Shown: piece after piece, positions 32,678 to 42,146 of the stretch
Layout: the number at the start of each line of letters is the position of its first letter
Numbering within the stretch: position 1 is the first letter of the stretch
NCBI RefSeq assembly: GCF_001543245.1
Contig: NZ_CP014163.1
Coordinates: 186,001-250,000 of the forward strand
DNA length: 64,000 bases
Direction of reading: 5' to 3'
Origin: Aerococcus urinaehominis
GTDB lineage: Bacteria; Bacillota; Bacilli; Lactobacillales; Aerococcaceae
Notes under the pieces: model-generated
Seen by the model: only the letters and a program-made list of their open reading frames with translations
What the model was told of the DNA's origin: nothing
Database searches by the model: none
Translations under genes and position numbers: made by a program

Positions 32678-34747
32678 TTAGCTAGGTCCTGCCCAGCTGG
32701 CTATCGCTTGATAGCGGTCAGCTTGAAGTGCAATTTGGCTAGAAGGATAGAAATGTTGGTAATAAGCTCTAACAATGGCATCGACCGTGATTCCCATGCT
32801 GGCTTGGAGGCGGTCACCGGCCATAGACTGACCAAACGCATCAAGACCCAGCACTACCCCCTCAAGGCCGACATACCGGTACCAGGACTGGCTAGCTCCA
32901 AGTTCAATGGCAATCCGCCGCTTTTCACAAGAAGGCAGGACACTTTCTTGGTAGGCCTGGTCTTGTTCATTAAAAAGCTCCTGACAAGGCATGGAAACCA
33001 CAGCTAGCTCAATACCTAAAGCGCGCAACTGCTCTTGCGCTTGTAGGGTTAAATCAACTTCGGACCCGCTAGCAATCAAAATACCATCCCGGTGACCTTG
33101 GGCTGGTGATAAGACATAAGCACCACGCGCCACTCCTTGGTCAGCTAGCCGGTCAGTACCAGCTAAGATCGCGAGCTTTTGCCGTGATAAGGCCAGTACC
33201 TGCGGCCGGTCTCGAGCCATTAAAGCAATCTTCCAAGCGGCTTGGACTTCATTAGCATCTGCAGGCCGAAAAACATTGAGGTTAGGTATGGCTCTTAGAC
33301 TAGCCAGTTGTTCAATGGGCTGGTGAGTCGGGCCGTCTGCACCGACTTGGATTGAATCATGGGTGAACACATAAATAGCTGGTAATTTTGATAAGGCGGC
33401 CATGCGCATGGCTGGACGTAAGTAGTCAGCAAAAGCGAGGAAGGTGGCCACATAGGACTTACTGCCACCATGTAGGCAAATACCGTTCAAAATAGCTCCC
33501 ATAGCATGCTCGCGTATACCATAGTTAATATTACAGCCTTGATAGTAATCAGGAGCAAAATCTCCCTTATTCGTCAAAGTGGTCTTATTTGATGAAGCTA
33601 AATCAGCAGAACCGCCCCATAAATTAGGTAAGATATCTTGCAAGCAGGTCAAAACTTCACCAGAAGCATCACGACCTGAAAGGCCAGTTTCATCCACCCG
33701 GTAAGGGGTGAGCTGGCTCGTCCAATTTTTTGGTAACCACCCGCCCAGAGCCTGCCGATAGGCTTGGGCCTGATGTGGATAGGAGGCCTGATAGTTAACC
33801 AAGTCAGCCTGCCATTTCTCGTAGCTAGCAAGTTGGCTCGTTAAAATACTTGACCGATAGAGATCATAAACCTGGCGATCCACATAAAAGGTCTGGCTAG
33901 AGAGCCCCTTATCCAGCTTGTAGTCAACTATATCATCAGCTTTAAGTGGATTACCATGTACCTGATGACTACCTGCCAAACTAGAACCAGCCCCGATAAC
34001 TGTTTTGACCTCAATTAAACTAGGATGCTCTGTATCTGCCTTAGCCTCATTGATGGCCTGGTCAATCTCTGCAAGGTCTTCACCATCTTCAACCCGAATA
34101 TATTGCCAATTATAAGCTTGAAAGCGACTAGCTACATGATCTGAACACGATAAATCTAGCTGGCCATCTAAGGAAACATCGTTTGAATCATAGAGCACAA
34201 TCAGCTTGCCTAACTTAAGGTGACCGGCTAATGAGGCGGCTTCGTGGGAAATCCCCTCCATCAAGTCGCCATCAGAGACCAGACAATAGGTATGGTGATT
34301 AACAACTTGTTGACCTTTTTGGTTATACTGGCCGGCTAGGTGGGCTTCAGCCATGGCCATACCCACTGCATTTGCAAAACCCTGCCCCAGAGGACCAGTT
34401 GACGCTTCCACTCCAGGCGTCTGACCGTATTCAGGGTGACCTGGTGTCTTAGGATTAGCCTGGCGAAATCCCTTTAGATCCTGCATGGACAAGTCATAGC
34501 CTGCCACATGCAATAAGGCATAAAGGAGCGCTGAACCATGACCTGCTGATAGGACAAAGCGGTCTCGATCTGGCCAGTCCGGTTGGCTTGGTAGCTGCTT
34601 CATATGCCGCGTCCATAAGACATGCAGCATGGGAGCTGCTCCTAAAACTAAGCCTTGGTGGCCAGACTCAGCCTTGTCAATCATATCTAAGGCTAAGGCT
34701 CTTAAGGTGTCTACTGCTAATTGTTCACTTGTACTATTTAATCCCAT
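32678..34747 (-). CDS. tkt: Transketolase
   Basis: A 689-residue thiamine-diphosphate enzyme that moves two-carbon units between sugar phosphates and can supply erythrose 4-phosphate. The ThDP motif begins at [15 protein letters not shown] (about 161) and ends in [28 protein letters not shown] and [13 protein letters not shown] are conserved cofactor contacts. The N-terminal [14 protein letters not shown] has Gln where HPG is usual. It is the last gene of the aro operon, behind AATGGAGGAAGCATC, fitting its role of feeding DAHP synthase. Many Lactobacillales also have a housekeeping copy elsewhere. Confidence 0.93.
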
Positions 34748-34877: not shown

Positions 34878-35735
34878 TTATGCTAGTAAATTTTTTCCTG
34901 TTGCTAATTGATAATTAATCTCTGCTTGGCCCCATAACATCAGCAGGCCATTAAAGGCTTGACAGCCCCGACCCTTAGCTTGGCCAAGAAAAACCGTCTG
35001 GTCAGGTTCATAAATAATATCGAAAACATAGTTATGTGGGGAAAACCAATCTGCTTCTTTAACCACCGACTGGTTAACCTGGCCAACCATACCTACTGAG
35101 GTGGTTTGAACCACAATGTCTGCCTGATTGAGGGCCGACTTTACTTGGTCATCCTCGGCTAAATCAAGACAAGTAATCGCTAAATCTGGAAAATCAGCCC
35201 TAAGTTTTTCAATGACAGTTTTAATAGCCAATGGCCGCTGCCACTGACGGCCGACTAACTTGATTTGTCTAGCCCCCATCAAAACGGCTTGGGCCAAAAT
35301 TACACGACTGGTGCTACCAGTGCCGAATATAGTAATTTTCTGACCTGGCAAATGGCCACAATGTCGGCAGGCTGACTGCCAAAAACCTAGCCCATCAGTG
35401 TTGTAACCCCACCAACCATCATCCTGTTTAACTATGGTATTGACCGCCTGTACATAGGCGGCTGCTTGGTCAACATGGTCTACGCAAGCCAGAGCCTGGT
35501 GCTTACCCGGCATGGTAACATTAATCAGGAGAGCATCCAGGTTTTTTAAGGCTTCAATGCGGCCAATTGTCTCTGCCTCGCAGGTTTCAAATGCCAAGTA
35601 AACCGCGTCGACAGCTTGACGAGCAAAGGCCTGGTTATAGATAGCCAGTGATTTAGAATGTTTGATAGGACTTCCGACAATACCGGCTATCCGCGTCTCA
35701 CCATTGATATTTAAACTAGGCTCACTGGATGTCAT
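34878..35735 (-). CDS. aroE: Shikimate dehydrogenase
   Basis: 285 residues from ATG 35735, which overlaps the aroB stop by 14 bp; the longer in-frame version would lie inside aroB. It reduces 3-dehydroshikimate with NADPH in the shikimate pathway. GSPIKHSKSLAIYN (about 21-34) is the substrate motif, LLINVTMPGKHQAL holds the catalytic Lys, and ITIFGTGSTSRVILAQA is the NADP fold (GTGSTSR). The C-terminal FNGLLMLWGQAEINYQLATG is typical. Third gene of the aro operon. Confidence 0.93.
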   Translation of the reverse strand: MTSSEPSLNINGETRIAGIVGSPIKHSKSLAIYNQAFARQAVDAVYLAFETCEAETIGRIEALKNLDALLINVTMPGKHQALACVDHVDQAAAYVQAVNTIVKQDDGWWGYNTDGLGFWQSACRHCGHLPGQKITIFGTGSTSRVILAQAVLMGARQIKLVGRQWQRPLAIKTVIEKLRADFPDLAITCLDLAEDDQVKSALNQADIVVQTTSVGMVGQVNQSVVKEADWFSPHNYVFDIIYEPDQTVFLGQAKGRGCQAFNGLLMLWGQAEINYQLATGKNLLA

Positions 35736-36813
35736 AGGCTGCCCACACCCTTTCCAAGCTGGTATAAAAATCTTCAAGCTGATAATGATAGAGACCGCAA
35801 TGGCCTAGGCTATCAGGTAATACTAAGGTTATTTCATCTTGGCGACGCTTTTTATCATTAGACATGGCTGTCTTTAGCTCATCAAAGTCATATTGTGGCT
35901 TCGTGGTCAGAAGTTGGTAATCCTTAAGTAGCCCATCTAAGTCAGACCTGAAGTTATCAGCTAATATCCCCTGGTCAACCGCTAAGTCAACAAATACTGA
36001 CATGTCTAGAGCTACCGCACGACCATGCGATATTTGATAATTAGATACCTGTTCTAGGGCATGGCCCAGGGTGTGCCCATAATTAAGTAATTGGCGGACA
36101 CCATGGTCCTTAGCATCCTGGCTAGCAATATCGCGCTTCATGGTGACACAAGTTTTTACAAAATCGATTAAATCTGCTGCTTCAGCATTAAGTGGCTGGT
36201 CACGATTATTCAATTTTTTGACTAAAGCAGGATTATCAATTAGGCCATATTTGATCATTTCCGCCATACCATCCTGAAAATCCTGGCTGGCTAAAGTTTT
36301 TAAACTATCCAAGTCACAGAGGACAACTTTTGGTTGATAAAAGGCACCAACTAGATTTTTTCCAGCTGCGATATCCACCCCAGTCTTGCCACCTACAGAA
36401 GAGTCAATCGCCGCCAACAGGGTGGTTGGCATCTGGAAAAAGTTAATCCCGCGCAGATAACAAGCCGCAGCAAAACCGGCCAAGTCACCGACAACACCGC
36501 CCCCCAGGGCAATGAGATAGTCGTTACGGGAAAAGTTGACCTGGGCTAAGTAATCAAAGATACGGCCAACATTAGCCAAATTCTTAGTGGTTTCACCAGC
36601 AGGAAAAATAAGCTGGTGGACCTGGTGGGCTAAGCTTTGGATACGACTTTGCAAACGATCTGGATAAGCGAAGCTGGCAACGTTAGCATCAGTGATGATC
36701 ATCACCTTACGGCCAGTGATGTAAGGCGCTAGTAAGTCATCAGCTTGGTCGATTAAACCGCGGCCAATAATGACATCATAGGCTGGCTGGATGGGAATAT
36801 GAACCTTTTCCAT
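35722..36813 (-). CDS. aroB: 3-dehydroquinate synthase
   Basis: 363 residues, converting DAHP to 3-dehydroquinate with NAD and a divalent metal. It shows LIALGGGVVGDLAGFAAACY (NAD-binding), PTTLLAAIDSSVGGKTGVD, KNLVGAFYQPKVV and the metal-binding His residues in LLNYGHTLGHALE and SHGRAVALDM. I chose ATG 36813 because AAGGAG stands 8 nt before it and the usual N-terminus begins here. It lies 17 bp downstream of the DAHP synthase gene. Confidence 0.95.
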   Translation of the reverse strand: MEKVHIPIQPAYDVIIGRGLIDQADDLLAPYITGRKVMIITDANVASFAYPDRLQSRIQSLAHQVHQLIFPAGETTKNLANVGRIFDYLAQVNFSRNDYLIALGGGVVGDLAGFAAACYLRGINFFQMPTTLLAAIDSSVGGKTGVDIAAGKNLVGAFYQPKVVLCDLDSLKTLASQDFQDGMAEMIKYGLIDNPALVKKLNNRDQPLNAEAADLIDFVKTCVTMKRDIASQDAKDHGVRQLLNYGHTLGHALEQVSNYQISHGRAVALDMSVFVDLAVDQGILADNFRSDLDGLLKDYQLLTTKPQYDFDELKTAMSNDKKRRQDEITLVLPDSLGHCGLYHYQLEDFYTSLERVWAAYDIQ

Positions 36814-36830
36814 GGGCGACACTCCTTTTT

Positions 36831-37838
36831 TTAGGCATTCAAACCTTGCATAAAGCTGTGTAATTGCCATACTTTCTTGGTCATGGCTTGATATTGGTCT
36901 GGGTATAGAGATTGGGGACCATCAGATACGGCCTCTTCCGGTTTAATATGGGTTTCAATAATTAAGCCATCAGCGCCGGCTGCTACCCCGGCCAGGGCCA
37001 TATCTTCAATAATGTCACGACGACCAGCAGCGTGTGACGGGTCAACTACTACTGGCAGGTGGCTTAACTGATGAACCAGCGGGACGGCGGATAAGTCCTG
37101 GGTATTACGAGTCGCTGTTTCATAAGTTCTGATACCACGTTCACAAAGCATAACATTTGGGTTACCCTCGCTCATGATATACTCAGCTGACATCAACCAC
37201 TCGTCAATAGTGCCGGCAATGCCACGCTTCAATAATACTGGTCGTTTGGTTTTACCAACTGCTTTAAGGAGGTCAAAGTTTTGAGCATTCCGAGCACCAA
37301 TTTGGAAAACATCTACGCCTTCTTGGTCGAAGAGTTCAATTTGAGAAATCTCCATAACTTCAGCTACTGTTGGCAAGTTAAATTCTTGACCTACCTGGTG
37401 TAAGAGGCGCAAGCCCTCTTGACCCATACCTTGGAAGGAATAGGGAGAGGTACGCGGCTTAAAGGCACCGCCGCGCAACATGTTGGCTCCAGCTGCTTTA
37501 ACGTAGCGAGCTGTTTCTCGCAACTGATCCAGAGACTCAATCGCGCAAGGGCCACCAATCATGGCGAAATGACCGCCGCCTACCTTGACACCTGCCACAT
37601 CTATTACGGAATCTTCAGGATGCACCTGGCGTGAGGCCCGCACAAATTTTTCTTTTAATTCTTCAATGGCAAGGACCTCTTCCATATTAGCAAGGGCCTG
37701 CTTGTCGTCTGCCGATAGCTTACCCTCAATTAAAAGGGCACTGTCCCCCCGTTTGAGCGGGGTCAATTTTAGGTCTTGGGCACTTAATTTTTCAACTAGC
37801 TTTTGCCGGGCTTGGTCATTTTTACTTACAATAATCAT
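36831..37838 (-). CDS. aroF: DAHP synthase with N-terminal regulatory domain
   Basis: 335 residues, first enzyme of the shikimate pathway: condenses phosphoenolpyruvate and erythrose 4-phosphate. The N-terminal 70 residues are a ferredoxin-like regulatory domain as in the Thermotoga enzyme, where it senses Tyr/Phe. The catalytic barrel (AroA-beta class) has IGGPCAIESLDQL (about 94), GAFKPRTSPYSFQG, LLKRG and VDPSHAAGRRD, which carry the PEP, E4P and metal contacts. ATG follows TAGGAGGACTAAT. It sits 27 bp after the attenuator terminator at 37865, so its expression should be set by that leader. Confidence 0.95.
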   Translation of the reverse strand: MIIVSKNDQARQKLVEKLSAQDLKLTPLKRGDSALLIEGKLSADDKQALANMEEVLAIEELKEKFVRASRQVHPEDSVIDVAGVKVGGGHFAMIGGPCAIESLDQLRETARYVKAAGANMLRGGAFKPRTSPYSFQGMGQEGLRLLHQVGQEFNLPTVAEVMEISQIELFDQEGVDVFQIGARNAQNFDLLKAVGKTKRPVLLKRGIAGTIDEWLMSAEYIMSEGNPNVMLCERGIRTYETATRNTQDLSAVPLVHQLSHLPVVVDPSHAAGRRDIIEDMALAGVAAGADGLIIETHIKPEEAVSDGPQSLYPDQYQAMTKKVWQLHSFMQGLNA

Positions 37839-37864: not shown

Positions 37865-37912
37865 AAAAAAGCAGCCGACAGCGAGATGGATAATCTCTGC
37901 TGCCAGCTGCTG
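37865..37912 (-). terminator. Attenuator terminator in the aro leader
   Basis: On the minus strand, from 37911, AGCAGCTGGCAGC-A-GAGAT pairs almost fully with ATCTCGCTGTCGGCTGCT over about 17 bp with a five-base loop (one bulged A, two G-T wobbles), followed by TTTTTT. It ends only 27 bp before the DAHP synthase start, so it must be read through for expression. Confidence 0.88.
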
Positions 37913-38056
37913 GTGAAATACTGAATCGGATAGTAGATTTAAAGATTCAGACTTCTTCACGAACATATTTGGATGCAACAAAAATTACCTTTACCTAGTA
38001 AAGCTACTAAAGTAAAAGTAAAAATATGTAAAAGCTGTTGCATTCATATTTAACAT
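37873..38056 (-). promoter_or_regulatory. Candidate attenuation region with competing RNA pairings
   Basis: Segment 1 ATGCAACA (38036-38043, inside the leader peptide) is an exact complement of segment 2 TGTTGCAT (37973-37980). Segment 2 can instead pair as TTTTTGTTGC with GCAGCAGAGA (37894-37903), the 5' arm of the terminator, using three G-T wobbles. An independent hairpin CTGAATC...GATTCAG (37921-37950) lies between. The order is 1:2 with 3:4 (off) against 2:3 (on). The pairings are visible; the switching is inferred. Confidence 0.6.
37991..38056 (-). CDS. Phe/Tyr-rich leader peptide of the aro operon
   Basis: A 21-codon ORF (ATG 38056, TAA 37991). The first eight residues are MLNMNATA, then FTYFYFYFSSFTR: five Phe and three Tyr codons within eleven codons. 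A GGAG site stands 13 nt before ATG, somewhat far. It lies between the promoter and the attenuator terminator of the DAHP synthase operon. A ribosome paused at the Phe/Tyr codons would cover segment 1 of the RNA switch and favour readthrough. This is the arrangement of the enteric pheA and trp leaders. No homolog is known to me, so the call rests on composition and position. Confidence 0.8.
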   Translation of the reverse strand: MLNMNATAFTYFYFYFSSFTR

Positions 38057-38092
38057 GTTGGTTAAAAATCTCCTTTTTTTCTACTTGGAACT

Positions 38093-38121
38093 AGCTTATC
38101 AGTTTATGGAAACCTTGTCAA
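38093..38121 (-). promoter_or_regulatory. Promoter of the aro operon leader
   Basis: TTGACA (38116-38121), 17-bp spacer, TAAGCT preceded by TGA (extended -10 TGn). The TTGACA is exact; the -10 is weak. Transcription would begin about 35 bp before the leader peptide start. Confidence 0.6.
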
Positions 38122-38181: not shown

Positions 38182-39182
38182 TTAATTAGCTAAACAATCG
38201 ACCACAGCCTGAGTAAAGGCGGAACAAGTCAGTGGTCCGCCTAAGTCCCGAGTGGTGAGGTCAGGCTGGCTTAAAACCTGGGCTAGAGCCTGACGTATGC
38301 GGTCAGCCACCTCCTGTTGGTCTAAATAATCAAGCATCAGACAAGCTGATAATACCAAGGCTGTTGGATTAGCCAAGTCTTGACCAGCAATATCAGGTGC
38401 TGAACCGTGGACAGCTTCAAAAATCGCCATATCATCGCCGATATTAGCCCCGGGAACCAATCCTAGTCCGCCAACCAAACCGGCCATCAGGTCAGAAAGA
38501 ATATCGCCATACAGGTTTTCAGTCAAGATAACATCAAACTGCTTAGGGTTGATCACCAGTTGCATAGCCATATTATCAACCAGAATCTCTTCTAGTTGAA
38601 TACTAGGATAATCCTTGGCCACCTGGCGGGCTGTTTCCAAAAATAAACCATCCGTTAGTTTCATAATATTAGCCTTCGTCACCACCGTCACTTTTTGACG
38701 CTGGTGTTTTTTGGCATAGGTAAAGGCCTGGCGGGCAATCCGTTGTGACCCTCGCCTAGTGATAATTTTGATACTGTGCATGACGTCATCAGAAATACGC
38801 TCTTCCACGCCAGCGTAAAGGTCTTCCGTATTTTCTCTAAATAAAACCAGGTCCAAGTTCGCTACCTGTCCACCAGCCTGACCAATTGATTGGATGGGCC
38901 TAAGATTGGTGTAAAGATCATATTTTTTCTAAGCGCTACATTGGCAGATCGGAAACCGGTGCCAATTGGAGTGGTCATCGGCCCTTTTAGTCCCACTCTA
39001 GTATCGGCTAATGAATCATAAACTGCTTGAGGAATCAGCTCACCAGTCTCTTCGTAGACTGCCTGCCCGGCCTTCACCACTTGCCAGTCAACATTTGCAC
39101 CAGCTGCTTGTAAAATCCTTATAGTCGCCTGCGCAATTTCTGGGCCAATGCCGTCCCCGGGTATCAATGTCACTTTCATCAT
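38182..39182 (-). pseudogene. NAD-type isocitrate/isopropylmalate dehydrogenase, frameshifted
   Basis: Joined frames give an approximately 333-residue dehydrogenase. The N-terminal frame (MKVTLIPGDGIGPEIAQATI, KGPMTTPIGTGFRSANVALR) starts 39182 after AGGAGGAAGAT and stops prematurely; the rest, LVLFRENTEDLYAGVEERI to the C-terminus ([40 protein letters not shown]), is in another frame. Adding one A to the run at 38923-38928 restores LRKKYDLYTNLRPIQ. The PMTTPIGTGFRS wording fits NAD-dependent isocitrate (or homoisocitrate, tartrate) dehydrogenases. It lies downstream of a CitMHS transporter in one operon and opposite the 2-oxoglutarate-using gdhA. Either decayed or an indel error. Confidence 0.8.
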
Positions 39183-39214: not shown

Positions 39215-40531
39215 TTAAATTATAATTGGCATCAAGCCTAGAAGGCCACCAACAATCACATAAATAATGAAAATGCCCAGTGAGACGACCAGACCCTTCT
39301 TCTGCCATGCCCCCCAATCCACTCCTGTCATGCCCAGCAGTACATAAGAGAAGGGCACTAAAGGACTAAACAAGTGAAAGGCCTGGCCCATTAAAGAAGC
39401 AAAGGTCAGCTGCAGATCAGTAAAACCATATACCTCACCAGCCTGGCGTAAAATAGGCATCATCCCGTAATAGAAGGCATCGTTGTGTAGAAAATAAGTA
39501 CCTAGGGCTGAAAGTATAGCCACTATCAAACCGTAAAAGCGACCCAGCGAATCAGGAATCATAGCTAATAGGGCAGTAGCAATGCCATCAGCCATACCCG
39601 TTTCTTTTAAAATTCCCATAAAAACACCGGCTGCAAATACAGTCATGACCACCTGGTTGGCTTCGCTCGCATTAGCATCAATGCGTCCTTTTTGGTCCTT
39701 TAGGTTGGGATAATTAACGAGTAAGGTCACTACCGTGCCTACCATAAAGATTATTGCTGGCGGTATATCAGAAACAACTAATAAGCCAACAGTAATCAAA
39801 ACAATTGTAGCATTGAGCCAAACTAAATGGGGGCGCTTCAGATTTTGATTATCCCCATCACCTTGCACCATCATGTCCGCAATTTCTTGGTCCGTCAAGT
39901 AAATCACACCCAGGCGCTTTTGCTCCTGTTTCCCAATCCAATAAGCAACTGCGAACATATAGACTATGGCAACAGCCATCATGGGCACCAGGCCGCGCAT
40001 CACTTCTGAAGTGCCAACTTCCATCACGGCAATAGCCCGTGCAGTCGGACCGCCCCAAGGCAGTAAATTTATAATCGAATGAGCCGTCATGGTAAGGACA
40101 GCCAAGTCCAACAAGTTCATATTTAGCTTTTTATATATCGGCACCATGGCAGTAGAGACAATAATCATAGTCGTAGTCCCATCGCCATTGAGCGACACCA
40201 ATATAGTTAGCAAAACCGTTGCTAAGGAGACTTTTAAAGGATCACCCTTTGCGTACTTAATCATCAAATTTGATAAGGGGTCAAACAAACCGGCATCAAT
40301 CATGATGGTAAACATATAAATAGCAAAGAAAAGCATAATACCGGTTTTAGCTGTTGTCATTAAACCTGACAAGGCCGCTTCACCTATGTCAATTGACCAA
40401 AAATTTAGTAGCTGACCTAGCGCAGCAAAGCTGACCGGTAGGGCAACTAAACCAATAAAAGGACTAATCTTCTTTTTCATTATCAAGGCCATGAAAATAA
40501 TAATCATAGCAAATCCCATTAAAGCAATCAT
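39215..40531 (-). CDS. CitMHS-family citrate (divalent metal-complex) transporter
   Basis: A 438-residue polytopic transporter of the CitM family, which takes up citrate, usually as a Mg2+ or Ca2+ complex with a proton. It shows LNGDGTTTMIIVSTAMVPIY, SIINLLPWGGPTARAIAVM and THFLHNDAFYYG-type wording (here YFLHNDAFYYGMMP). ATG follows CGGAGGTGGTCCC. The isocitrate dehydrogenase-like gene begins 33 bp downstream, so uptake and oxidation of citrate or isocitrate are linked. Aconitase is not in the window. Confidence 0.88.
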   Translation of the reverse strand: MIALMGFAMIIIFMALIMKKKISPFIGLVALPVSFAALGQLLNFWSIDIGEAALSGLMTTAKTGIMLFFAIYMFTIMIDAGLFDPLSNLMIKYAKGDPLKVSLATVLLTILVSLNGDGTTTMIIVSTAMVPIYKKLNMNLLDLAVLTMTAHSIINLLPWGGPTARAIAVMEVGTSEVMRGLVPMMAVAIVYMFAVAYWIGKQEQKRLGVIYLTDQEIADMMVQGDGDNQNLKRPHLVWLNATIVLITVGLLVVSDIPPAIIFMVGTVVTLLVNYPNLKDQKGRIDANASEANQVVMTVFAAGVFMGILKETGMADGIATALLAMIPDSLGRFYGLIVAILSALGTYFLHNDAFYYGMMPILRQAGEVYGFTDLQLTFASLMGQAFHLFSPLVPFSYVLLGMTGVDWGAWQKKGLVVSLGIFIIYVIVGGLLGLMPIII

Positions 40532-40799: not shown

Positions 40800-42146
40800 T
40801 TAAACTAAGCCTTGGGCTAGCATTACTTCAGATACGCGGGCAAAACCAGCTACATTAGCCCCAAGTCTTAAGTCATCAGGGTGACTATACCGCTTGGCCG
40901 TATTAGAACAAGCATCATAAATAGCTTTCATGGTTTCTTGTAAGCGGCCATCAACCTCTTCAAAGGTCCATTGGAGACGTTGTGAGTTTTGTGCCATTTC
41001 TAAGGCTGAAACAGCTACCCCACCAGCATTTACTGCTTTGGCAGGACCGAAAAGCACCTTATTGTCATCGAAAATTTCAACAGCTGCCTCTTGACTCGGC
41101 ATGTTGGCACCTTCAAAGACATACTTAACGCCATGGTCCACCATATTTTGCGCCATTTCCGCATTAATTTCATTTTGAGTTGCGCAAGGCAAGGCCACAT
41201 CATAACTTAAATCAGCTGCCCACACAGATTCATTTGGATAGAATTTAGCATCTGGGTGGTGTTTAGTGTATTCATCTAGTGAAATGGCATCGTCAACTGG
41301 AATATTTTTAAGGGTCTCTGCAGAAATACCAGCTTCGTCATAGACGTAGCCTGTAATATCTGAAACAGCGATGACAGTAGCACCTAATTGCTCAGCTTTT
41401 TCTACTGCATACATAGCAACGGTACCCCGACCTGAGATAACGACCCGCTTGCCTGATATATCTTGGCCACGGTCAGCAAGGGCATTTTGGGCAAAGTAAA
41501 CAACACCATAACCTGTAGCCTCTGTCCGAGCAAATGAACCCCATTGGTTAGTCGGTTTACCAGTCAAGACACCAGGTTCAGTTTGATTGAGGCGTTTATA
41601 TTGGCCATACATATAGCCAATTTCCCGCGCCCGCACACCGATATCTCCAGCTGGTACATCACGATCAGGTCCAATGTATTTTTGCAATTCGGTCATGAAG
41701 CTTTGGCAGAAGCGCATCACTTCAGCATCAGACTTACCAGAAGGATCAAAGTCTGATCCCCCCTTACCACCACCGATAGGGAGACTGGTCAAGGCGTTCT
41801 TGAAAATTTGCTCAAAGCCTAGGAAGCGAACGATACTTTCATTCACTGAAGGATGGAAGCGTAAACCGCCCTTATAAGGACCCAAAGCTGAATTATATTG
41901 GACTCGATAGCCTAAATTAACGCGCCAATTCCCTTGATCATCTTGCCATGGGACACGGAATTGAATCACCCGTTCAGGTTCAACCATGATTTCTAGTAAA
42001 TTATGGGCTTCAATTTCAGGGTGCTCAGCCACATAACCTGCAATTGTTGGTAGAAATTCTTCCACTGCTTGGACAAATTCAGGCTTATCTTGATGACGTT
42101 CTTGGACACTGGCCAATACACGATTTACATATTCTTGGGCAGACAT
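40800..42146 (-). CDS. gdhA: NADP-specific glutamate dehydrogenase
   Basis: A 448-residue hexameric-type glutamate dehydrogenase, aminating 2-oxoglutarate to glutamate with NADPH and ammonia. PIGGGKGGSDFDPSGKSDAEVMRFC (about 121-145) holds the catalytic Lys region, PAGDIGVRAREIGYMYG the conserved Asp, and VVISGRGTVAMYAVEKA the coenzyme fold. The length and MSAQEYVNRVLASVQER start fit the NADP biosynthetic class. Its promoter is TTGCCA-N18-TATAAT (42199-42228). It is transcribed alone, but its neighbour operon could supply 2-oxoglutarate. Confidence 0.95.
   Translation of the reverse strand: MSAQEYVNRVLASVQERHQDKPEFVQAVEEFLPTIAGYVAEHPEIEAHNLLEIMVEPERVIQFRVPWQDDQGNWRVNLGYRVQYNSALGPYKGGLRFHPSVNESIVRFLGFEQIFKNALTSLPIGGGKGGSDFDPSGKSDAEVMRFCQSFMTELQKYIGPDRDVPAGDIGVRAREIGYMYGQYKRLNQTEPGVLTGKPTNQWGSFARTEATGYGVVYFAQNALADRGQDISGKRVVISGRGTVAMYAVEKAEQLGATVIAVSDITGYVYDEAGISAETLKNIPVDDAISLDEYTKHHPDAKFYPNESVWAADLSYDVALPCATQNEINAEMAQNMVDHGVKYVFEGANMPSQEAAVEIFDDNKVLFGPAKAVNAGGVAVSALEMAQNSQRLQWTFEEVDGRLQETMKAIYDACSNTAKRYSHPDDLRLGANVAGFARVSEVMLAQGLV

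Follow-up and report, generated by a model that had tools for sequence, protein, structure and literature searches.

A predicted attenuator with phenylalanine and tyrosine codons in the leader of the DAHP synthase operon of Aerococcus urinaehominis

Results

Genes and leader elements at the locus

The window analyzed here, a stretch of 64,000 nucleotides from Aerococcus urinaehominis, carries on its minus strand the aromatic-pathway genes aroF, aroB and aroE, of which aroF is the first (Table 1). The listed start of aroB overlaps aroF, and its real start is probably located slightly inside the listed ORF. We infer that the transketolase gene, which lies on the same strand, is also a member of the operon. 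On the other side of the leader, an isocitrate dehydrogenase-like gene occupies two reading frames (38182-39182, minus strand), the pieces of which were searched separately; genes for a citrate:proton symporter (39215-40531) and a glutamate dehydrogenase (40800-42146) adjoin it.

Table 1. Positions of the leader elements, pairing segments and genes in the window
Feature	Position	Strand	Basis
Promoter-like site: TTGACA (38121-38116), 17-nt spacer, TG-A-TAAGCT (-10 at 38098-38093)	38093..38121	minus	sequence read
Shine-Dalgarno-like AGGAG for the leader ORF	38070..38074	minus	sequence read
Leader peptide ORF, MLNMNATAFTYFYFYFSSFTR and stop	37991..38056	minus	21 codons, translation read
Segment A (ATGCAACA), before the control codons, partner of B	38036..38043	minus	duplex, -14.6 kcal/mol
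Control-codon run FTYFYFYFSSF	38000..38032	minus	5 Phe and 3 Tyr in 11 codons
Segment B (GGTAATTTTTGTTGC), abuts the leader stop codon, partner of A or C	37975..37989	minus	duplexes
Small hairpin CTGAATC...GATTCAG, between B and C	37921..37950	minus	sequence read
Intrinsic terminator, hairpin and T run	37865..37911	minus	18 pairs, -28.7 kcal/mol
Segment C (GCAGCAGAGATTATC), terminator 5' arm and loop, partner of B	37889..37903	minus	duplexes
Segment D, terminator 3' arm	37870..37887	minus	terminator fold
DAHP synthase (aroF type), first gene of the operon	36831..37838	minus	NF006421 and TIGR01361 over cut-off
3-Dehydroquinate synthase, aroB	35722..36870	minus	TIGR01357 over cut-off
Shikimate dehydrogenase, aroE	34878..35777	minus	shikimate dehydrogenase models best, none over its own cut-off
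Transketolase	32678..34747	minus	TIGR00232 over cut-off

The sequence-only reading of this DNA had claimed an exact TTGACA upstream of the leader. The hexamer is present, though the -10 element is weak, matching the consensus at three of six positions with a TG one base ahead of the hexamer. The same layout (TTGACA, 17 nt, TAAA..) was also seen in the related loci L002, L004 and L008. The AGGAG motif precedes the ATG of the leader ORF by 13 nt, a spacing above the usual one. As in trp-type attenuators, an intrinsic terminator (-28.7 kcal/mol) lies between the leader and the first gene of the aromatic pathway, just as had been claimed. Its stem (37911-37870) has one bulged base and is directly followed by five T residues, or six with the closing pair; the distance from the terminator to aroF is 31 nt. 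A simple consensus scan of the window listed neither the promoter nor the terminator, because the -10 element matches at only three of six positions and the scan allows no bulge in a stem.

The translation and a census of short ORFs both agreed with the claim of a 21-codon ORF on the minus strand with eight aromatic codons in eleven, and this first observation is confirmed. Among the 1351 ORFs of 10-60 codons on both strands of the window, only the leader ORF has eight Phe/Tyr codons in eleven, and three ORFs reach six. Six Phe/Tyr codons in a row (38026-38009) occur once in the window, compared with 0.07 expected, and 7 of 100 shuffled windows contained such a run. In the whole genome, the six-codon Phe/Tyr pattern gave six matches at five sites. 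Since the reversed control pattern gave 11 matches genome-wide, the codon run by itself is no proof. The predicted leader ORF is nevertheless rich in codons for end products of the pathway, which is a characteristic of trp-type attenuators.

Competing helices in the leader RNA

The part missing from the earlier attenuation claim, an antiterminator, was found in the pairing of segments B and C. A four-segment design with the pairings A:B, B:C and C:D is shared by 11 loci (L001-L011), the window included, and in all of them B is the best partner of the terminator 5' arm. Across these loci the B:C duplex has an energy of -19.0 to -21.4 kcal/mol and the A:B duplex one of -14.6 to -30.9 kcal/mol, and segment A is TGCAACA-like throughout. 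In the window, B:C consists of 15 contiguous pairs (-19.0 kcal/mol). In the minimum-energy fold of the window's leader, part of the control run also pairs with a stretch running into B; the small hairpin between B and C is missing from the minimum-energy fold of the entire leader.

In an alignment of the 11 sequences, 91.3% of the B:C cells and 89.3% of the A:B cells were paired. When the helices were slid by one to three columns, pairing dropped to at most 62.5% for B:C and at most 50.9% for A:B. At column 96, in segment B, C is replaced by U in five sequences, and the partners in A (column 21) and in C (column 188) change from G to A. Such a double co-variation is the mark of a single strand that would serve two helices. 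Since the five sequences form one sub-clade, the compensatory changes may represent few events. For A:B as well as B:C, none of the 500 shuffles reached the value of the real alignment in paired cells, in cells changed on both sides or in the covariation score. The count of pairs with both sides changed was not clearly exceptional against the shuffles (22/500 for B:C and 182/500 for A:B), and the number of further pair types was not exceptional (398/500 and 465/500, respectively).

We also compared the pairing with C in the native leaders and in shuffled ones. Of 500 shuffled leaders, 23 paired with C equally well for the window, 43 for L003 and 0-6 for the other nine loci. The B:C pairing of the window is only moderately unusual in this respect, and that of L003 is weak. 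Segment B of the window prefers its own C (-19.0 kcal/mol) to ten foreign C arms (-14.5 kcal/mol or weaker); this preference is not general, as most of the other loci pair a foreign C equally well or better.

Energy model and proposed mechanism

In the model with the ribosome halted on the control codons and the transcript ending at C, 12.0-14.5 B:C pairs were expected in 11/11 loci. Without a ribosome, A:B took the lead in all 11 loci, with 8.3-16.9 pairs. The lead was clear in nine of them (B:C at most 0.1 pairs), compared with 8.3 vs 4.2 pairs in L002 and 8.5 vs 6.3 pairs in the window. Because the ribosome-free model is split in this way, default termination would be less clear-cut in the window than in its relatives. 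With the ribosome at the stop codon of the window's leader, B:C was reduced to 3.6 pairs and C:D amounted to 17.6 pairs. The stop codon abuts B in the window, whereas it lies beyond B in L002-L011, and B was therefore left out of the stop-reached model for these ten loci. Duplex energies, co-variation and the energy model together point to a competing antiterminator, B:C, and a protector hairpin, A:B, as in trp-type attenuators.

The following mechanism may be proposed for the window. As long as charged Phe- and Tyr-tRNA are in supply, translation would proceed to the stop codon and the ribosome would mask B; C would then pair with D, and transcription would end. A shortage of either charged tRNA would stall the ribosome between A and B. 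Segment B could then anneal to C ahead of the synthesis of D, and the polymerase would continue into aroF, aroB and aroE. If no ribosome translates the leader, B would be partly sequestered in A:B. For L002-L011, the ten relatives with four segments, the leader stop lies beyond B, and termination would have to rest on A:B re-forming behind the ribosome. We infer that the charging of Phe- and Tyr-tRNA is sensed at the leader.

Conservation of the leader in the family and beyond

A DAHP synthase search of 76 genomes of the family gave a match in 33 and none in 43. The family sample consisted of 30 loci from 30 genomes, including that of the window; matches in G005, G029 and G031, and a second one in G034, lie outside this sample. 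Upstream ORFs were counted as aromatic-rich leaders when 12 residues included 6 or more Phe, Tyr or Trp, and candidates were accepted by judgement. The ORF scan started 800 nt before the match start. By this threshold, such a leader precedes DAHP synthase in 26 of the 30 family loci. Absence of the leader, or of its richness in aromatic codons, in close relatives had been named beforehand as a result that would speak against the claim; 25 of the 29 relatives carry it.

The leader peptide is AFTYFNYFYFYFF in L004, with nearly identical ones in L002 and L003, and TTFYNFFNFYFYFYGF in L007-L009, which belong to the window's genus. Most loci of genus g19 have NFYFTYFTFWGFYF. Leaders with SWFYFSFYFF were found in L024 and L025, and leaders with YFTFWFF in L028 and L029. 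The leader of L013 is weaker (YYFSYFR type, 5 in 12); a higher-scoring ORF at this locus, which overlaps a promoter-like TTGACA, was left uncounted. No aromatic-rich leader was found upstream of DAHP synthase in L026, L027 and L030. All 11 four-segment loci contain both Phe and Tyr codons in the control stretch. In their alignment, gaps within this stretch are multiples of three, whereas later gaps are not.

At the level of the order, 210 of 395 genomes matched in the DAHP synthase search, 30 of them from the family. Sixty loci, one per genome, were hand-picked among the matches listed from the 180 non-family genomes; they represent families f2, f3, f5, f6, f8 and f9, with f4 and f7 outside the sample, and the ORF scan started 500 nt before the longest start. 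By the same threshold, 2 of these 60 loci passed (L122 and L137). The two belong to two other families, and the aromatic ORF of L122 is similar to the g19 type.

A broader scan of 80 loci gave at least 6 aromatic residues in 12 at 12 loci and at least 7 at five. By title, these five are records of Kiritimatiellae, Lentisphaerae or uncultured organisms, and none is from Paenibacillus or Cohnella. The aromatic ORFs before DAHP synthase in the Kiritimatiellae, Lentisphaerae and uncultured records L031, L033, L040, L060 and L086 differ in kind (e.g. FKFAWYYYFGF) and apparently represent an independent case.

Other architectures in relatives

Six segments were assigned in L024, L025, L028 and L029, in which each pairing between neighbours has an energy of -12.2 to -19.3 kcal/mol. 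Pairings between non-neighbours are weaker (-1.1 to -8.6 kcal/mol), except for 3:5 in L028 and L029 (-12.0 kcal/mol). Since the segments were picked by eye before the energies were computed, this contrast is partly built in. In L024, no terminator was detected by the automatic search. The six segments might act as a relay: a stall would free segment 2, the 2:3 pairing would free 4, and 4:5 would block the terminator 5:6.

The type found in genus g19 (11 loci: L012 and L014-L023) has an aromatic leader and a terminator. A search for an antiterminator in five of these loci gave weak and inconsistent pairings of -10.4 to -12.4 kcal/mol.

A second candidate leader before aroC

In the genome of the window, a second candidate leader was observed at 1969-2221 of L179 (G000:C1 1651968-1652220) and 1183-1435 of L187. 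Its ORF, MLVNCSLSIQSAYYFSFFR (1969-2028 in L179 and 1183-1242 in L187), ends 258 nt before aroC. The cluster contains chorismate synthase and EPSP synthase (aroA), both over the NCBIfam cut-off, as well as shikimate kinase-like and prephenate dehydratase-like (pheA) proteins, the best models of which are below cut-off, with an unmatched ORF between them. The ORF has 5 aromatic residues in 12, under the count threshold of 6. It is followed by a terminator (-16.8 kcal/mol), the 5' arm of which has an upstream partner (-16.2 kcal/mol).

None of the other 29 aroC loci fetched has a leader like MLVNCSLSIQSAYYFSFFR. The count reaches 5 in L196, L199 and L200 and 7 in L195, where the ORFs were judged unrelated. 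The second leader resembles the leader before DAHP synthase in L013 and otherwise appeared, among the aroC loci fetched, only in the genome of the window.

Domains of pheA and tyrA were found in this genome, while neither trpB nor trpD was over cut-off. Phe and Tyr would therefore be the amino acid products of the pathway here. We rejected the idea that Trp codons in the leader track Trp synthesis. The leader of G023 includes a Trp codon, yet this genome has no trpB or trpD over cut-off; trpB and trpD were found despite a Trp-free four-segment leader in G009, G010, G016, G017, G018, G034, G049 and G051.

Searches for T-boxes and other RNA families

The earlier claim that no T-box core is present agrees with a scan for RF00230, which gave no match in the window and none in the leader even at E<=5. 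At E<=0.001 the whole genome gave 17 T-box matches, all outside the window; nine of these are over cut-off. The accompanying remark that Lactobacillales usually use T-boxes was not borne out at the DAHP synthase gene, because none of the 60 sampled upstream regions from the order outside the family contained a T-box at gathering score. Replacement of a T-box by the leader was considered and rejected, since with 0/60 order loci showing a T-box no such replacement can be claimed at this gene. A scan with 4227 Rfam families found none at gathering score in the leader or in the 30 family loci.

Discussion

We conclude that the leader is predicted to act as a trp-type, ribosome-mediated attenuator that would let transcription pass under a shortage of charged Phe- or Tyr-tRNA. 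We regard this reading as highly probable.

Three other explanations have to be weighed. The aromatic ORF might be noise that stands next to the terminator by chance, the terminator serving the transcript of the upstream dehydrogenase gene. The upstream gene does run in the same direction, its ORF ending at 38182; a leader in 26 of 30 related loci, a terminator arm that pairs with B in 11/11 and the single ORF this extreme among 1351 short ones in the window make such a coincidence hardly credible. A leader RNA that senses a small molecule or protein directly, as a riboswitch or the target of an RNA-binding regulator, with the aromatic ORF incidental, is very unlikely. The strong structure of the RNA (z-score -6.95) and the terminator at its end would suit a riboswitch, yet neither the leader nor the 30 family loci match an Rfam family at gathering score. 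Moreover, the aromatic ORF is constant while the pairing shifts from four to six segments, whereas an aptamer should do the reverse.

The remaining explanation accepts attenuation coupled to translation and differs in the cue, which would be a general slow-down or a single amino acid and not Phe- and Tyr-tRNA together. The leader of ermC is described as sensing a general slow-down of translation (PMC2965389), and the control run of the window has more Phe than Tyr codons (5 vs 3). Each of the 11 four-segment loci has codons for both amino acids in its control stretch, which argues against such a cue, and we regard this explanation as unlikely.

The enteric trp and phe attenuators have a leader ORF with control codons and exclusive pairings of the segments 1:2, 2:3 and 3:4. 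The leader of the window is like them in its short control-codon ORF, its four segments and its terminator before the first biosynthetic gene, and, in the predicted fold, the control codons likewise lie inside the first hairpin. It differs in that it combines Phe and Tyr codons and precedes the first common step, DAHP synthase, in that segment A precedes the control codons, and in that it matches no Rfam leader family. The his operon attenuator has six segments, A-F, with the pairs 1:2, 3:4 and 5:6 competing against 2:3 and 4:5. The six-segment loci L024, L025, L028 and L029 are similar to it; the layout of the window differs, as do the gene and the codons.

The phylum Firmicutes is better known for T-boxes. 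Leader peptides have nevertheless been described in it, with his leader peptides before hisZ/hisS in bacilli (PMC2965389) and a Leu-rich ilv-leu attenuator in Staphylococcus aureus (PMC5794164). As described there, these share translation-dependent attenuation of amino-acid genes with the leader of the window and differ in amino acids, genes and RNA. The Leu/phe leader RF01743, listed for Lactococcus lactis (PMC2864571), is a leader motif of a lactic acid bacterium named for Leu/Phe and resembles the window's leader to this extent. It was found neither at gathering score in the window and the 30 family loci nor at E<=5 in the window's leader.

The motif uORFC-13-1, with 24 representatives from Acholeplasma and environmental sequences, is an upstream ORF with a U run coding for Phe that adjoins a terminator and occurs exclusively before aroF; attenuation has been proposed for it (PMC8632094). 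Compared by description only, it shares the upstream ORF, the terminator and aroF with the window. It belongs to another lineage, and the passages of that paper describing it speak of one or more Phe and of no Tyr run (PMC8632094). The class of mechanism is thus already known, and both the Firmicute leader peptides and the Phe upstream ORF of Acholeplasma aroF precede the case of the window. In the full-text literature searched, mostly without subscription papers, no description of an aromatic leader before DAHP synthase in the window's family was found.

We lean slightly towards a wider view in which one bacterial family governs its entry into the aromatic pathway through such leaders. The DAHP synthase leaders would read the charging of Phe and Tyr together, and in some lineages of Trp, and would have diversified into at least two designs, a four-segment switch and a six-segment relay that hands the signal along successive hairpins. 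The second leader of the window's genome would control the remainder of the pathway, namely aroC, aroA, shikimate kinase and pheA.

The predicted attenuator would add a conserved, enteric-style attenuation to a Gram-positive family, in a genome that has 17 T-box matches. The step it would regulate commits carbon to all aromatic amino acids, and a single leader reading two amino acids would respond to whichever is depleted first. With four segments in some loci and six in others before the same gene, the leaders would offer a natural experiment on how layers of a switch are gained or lost while its logic is kept.
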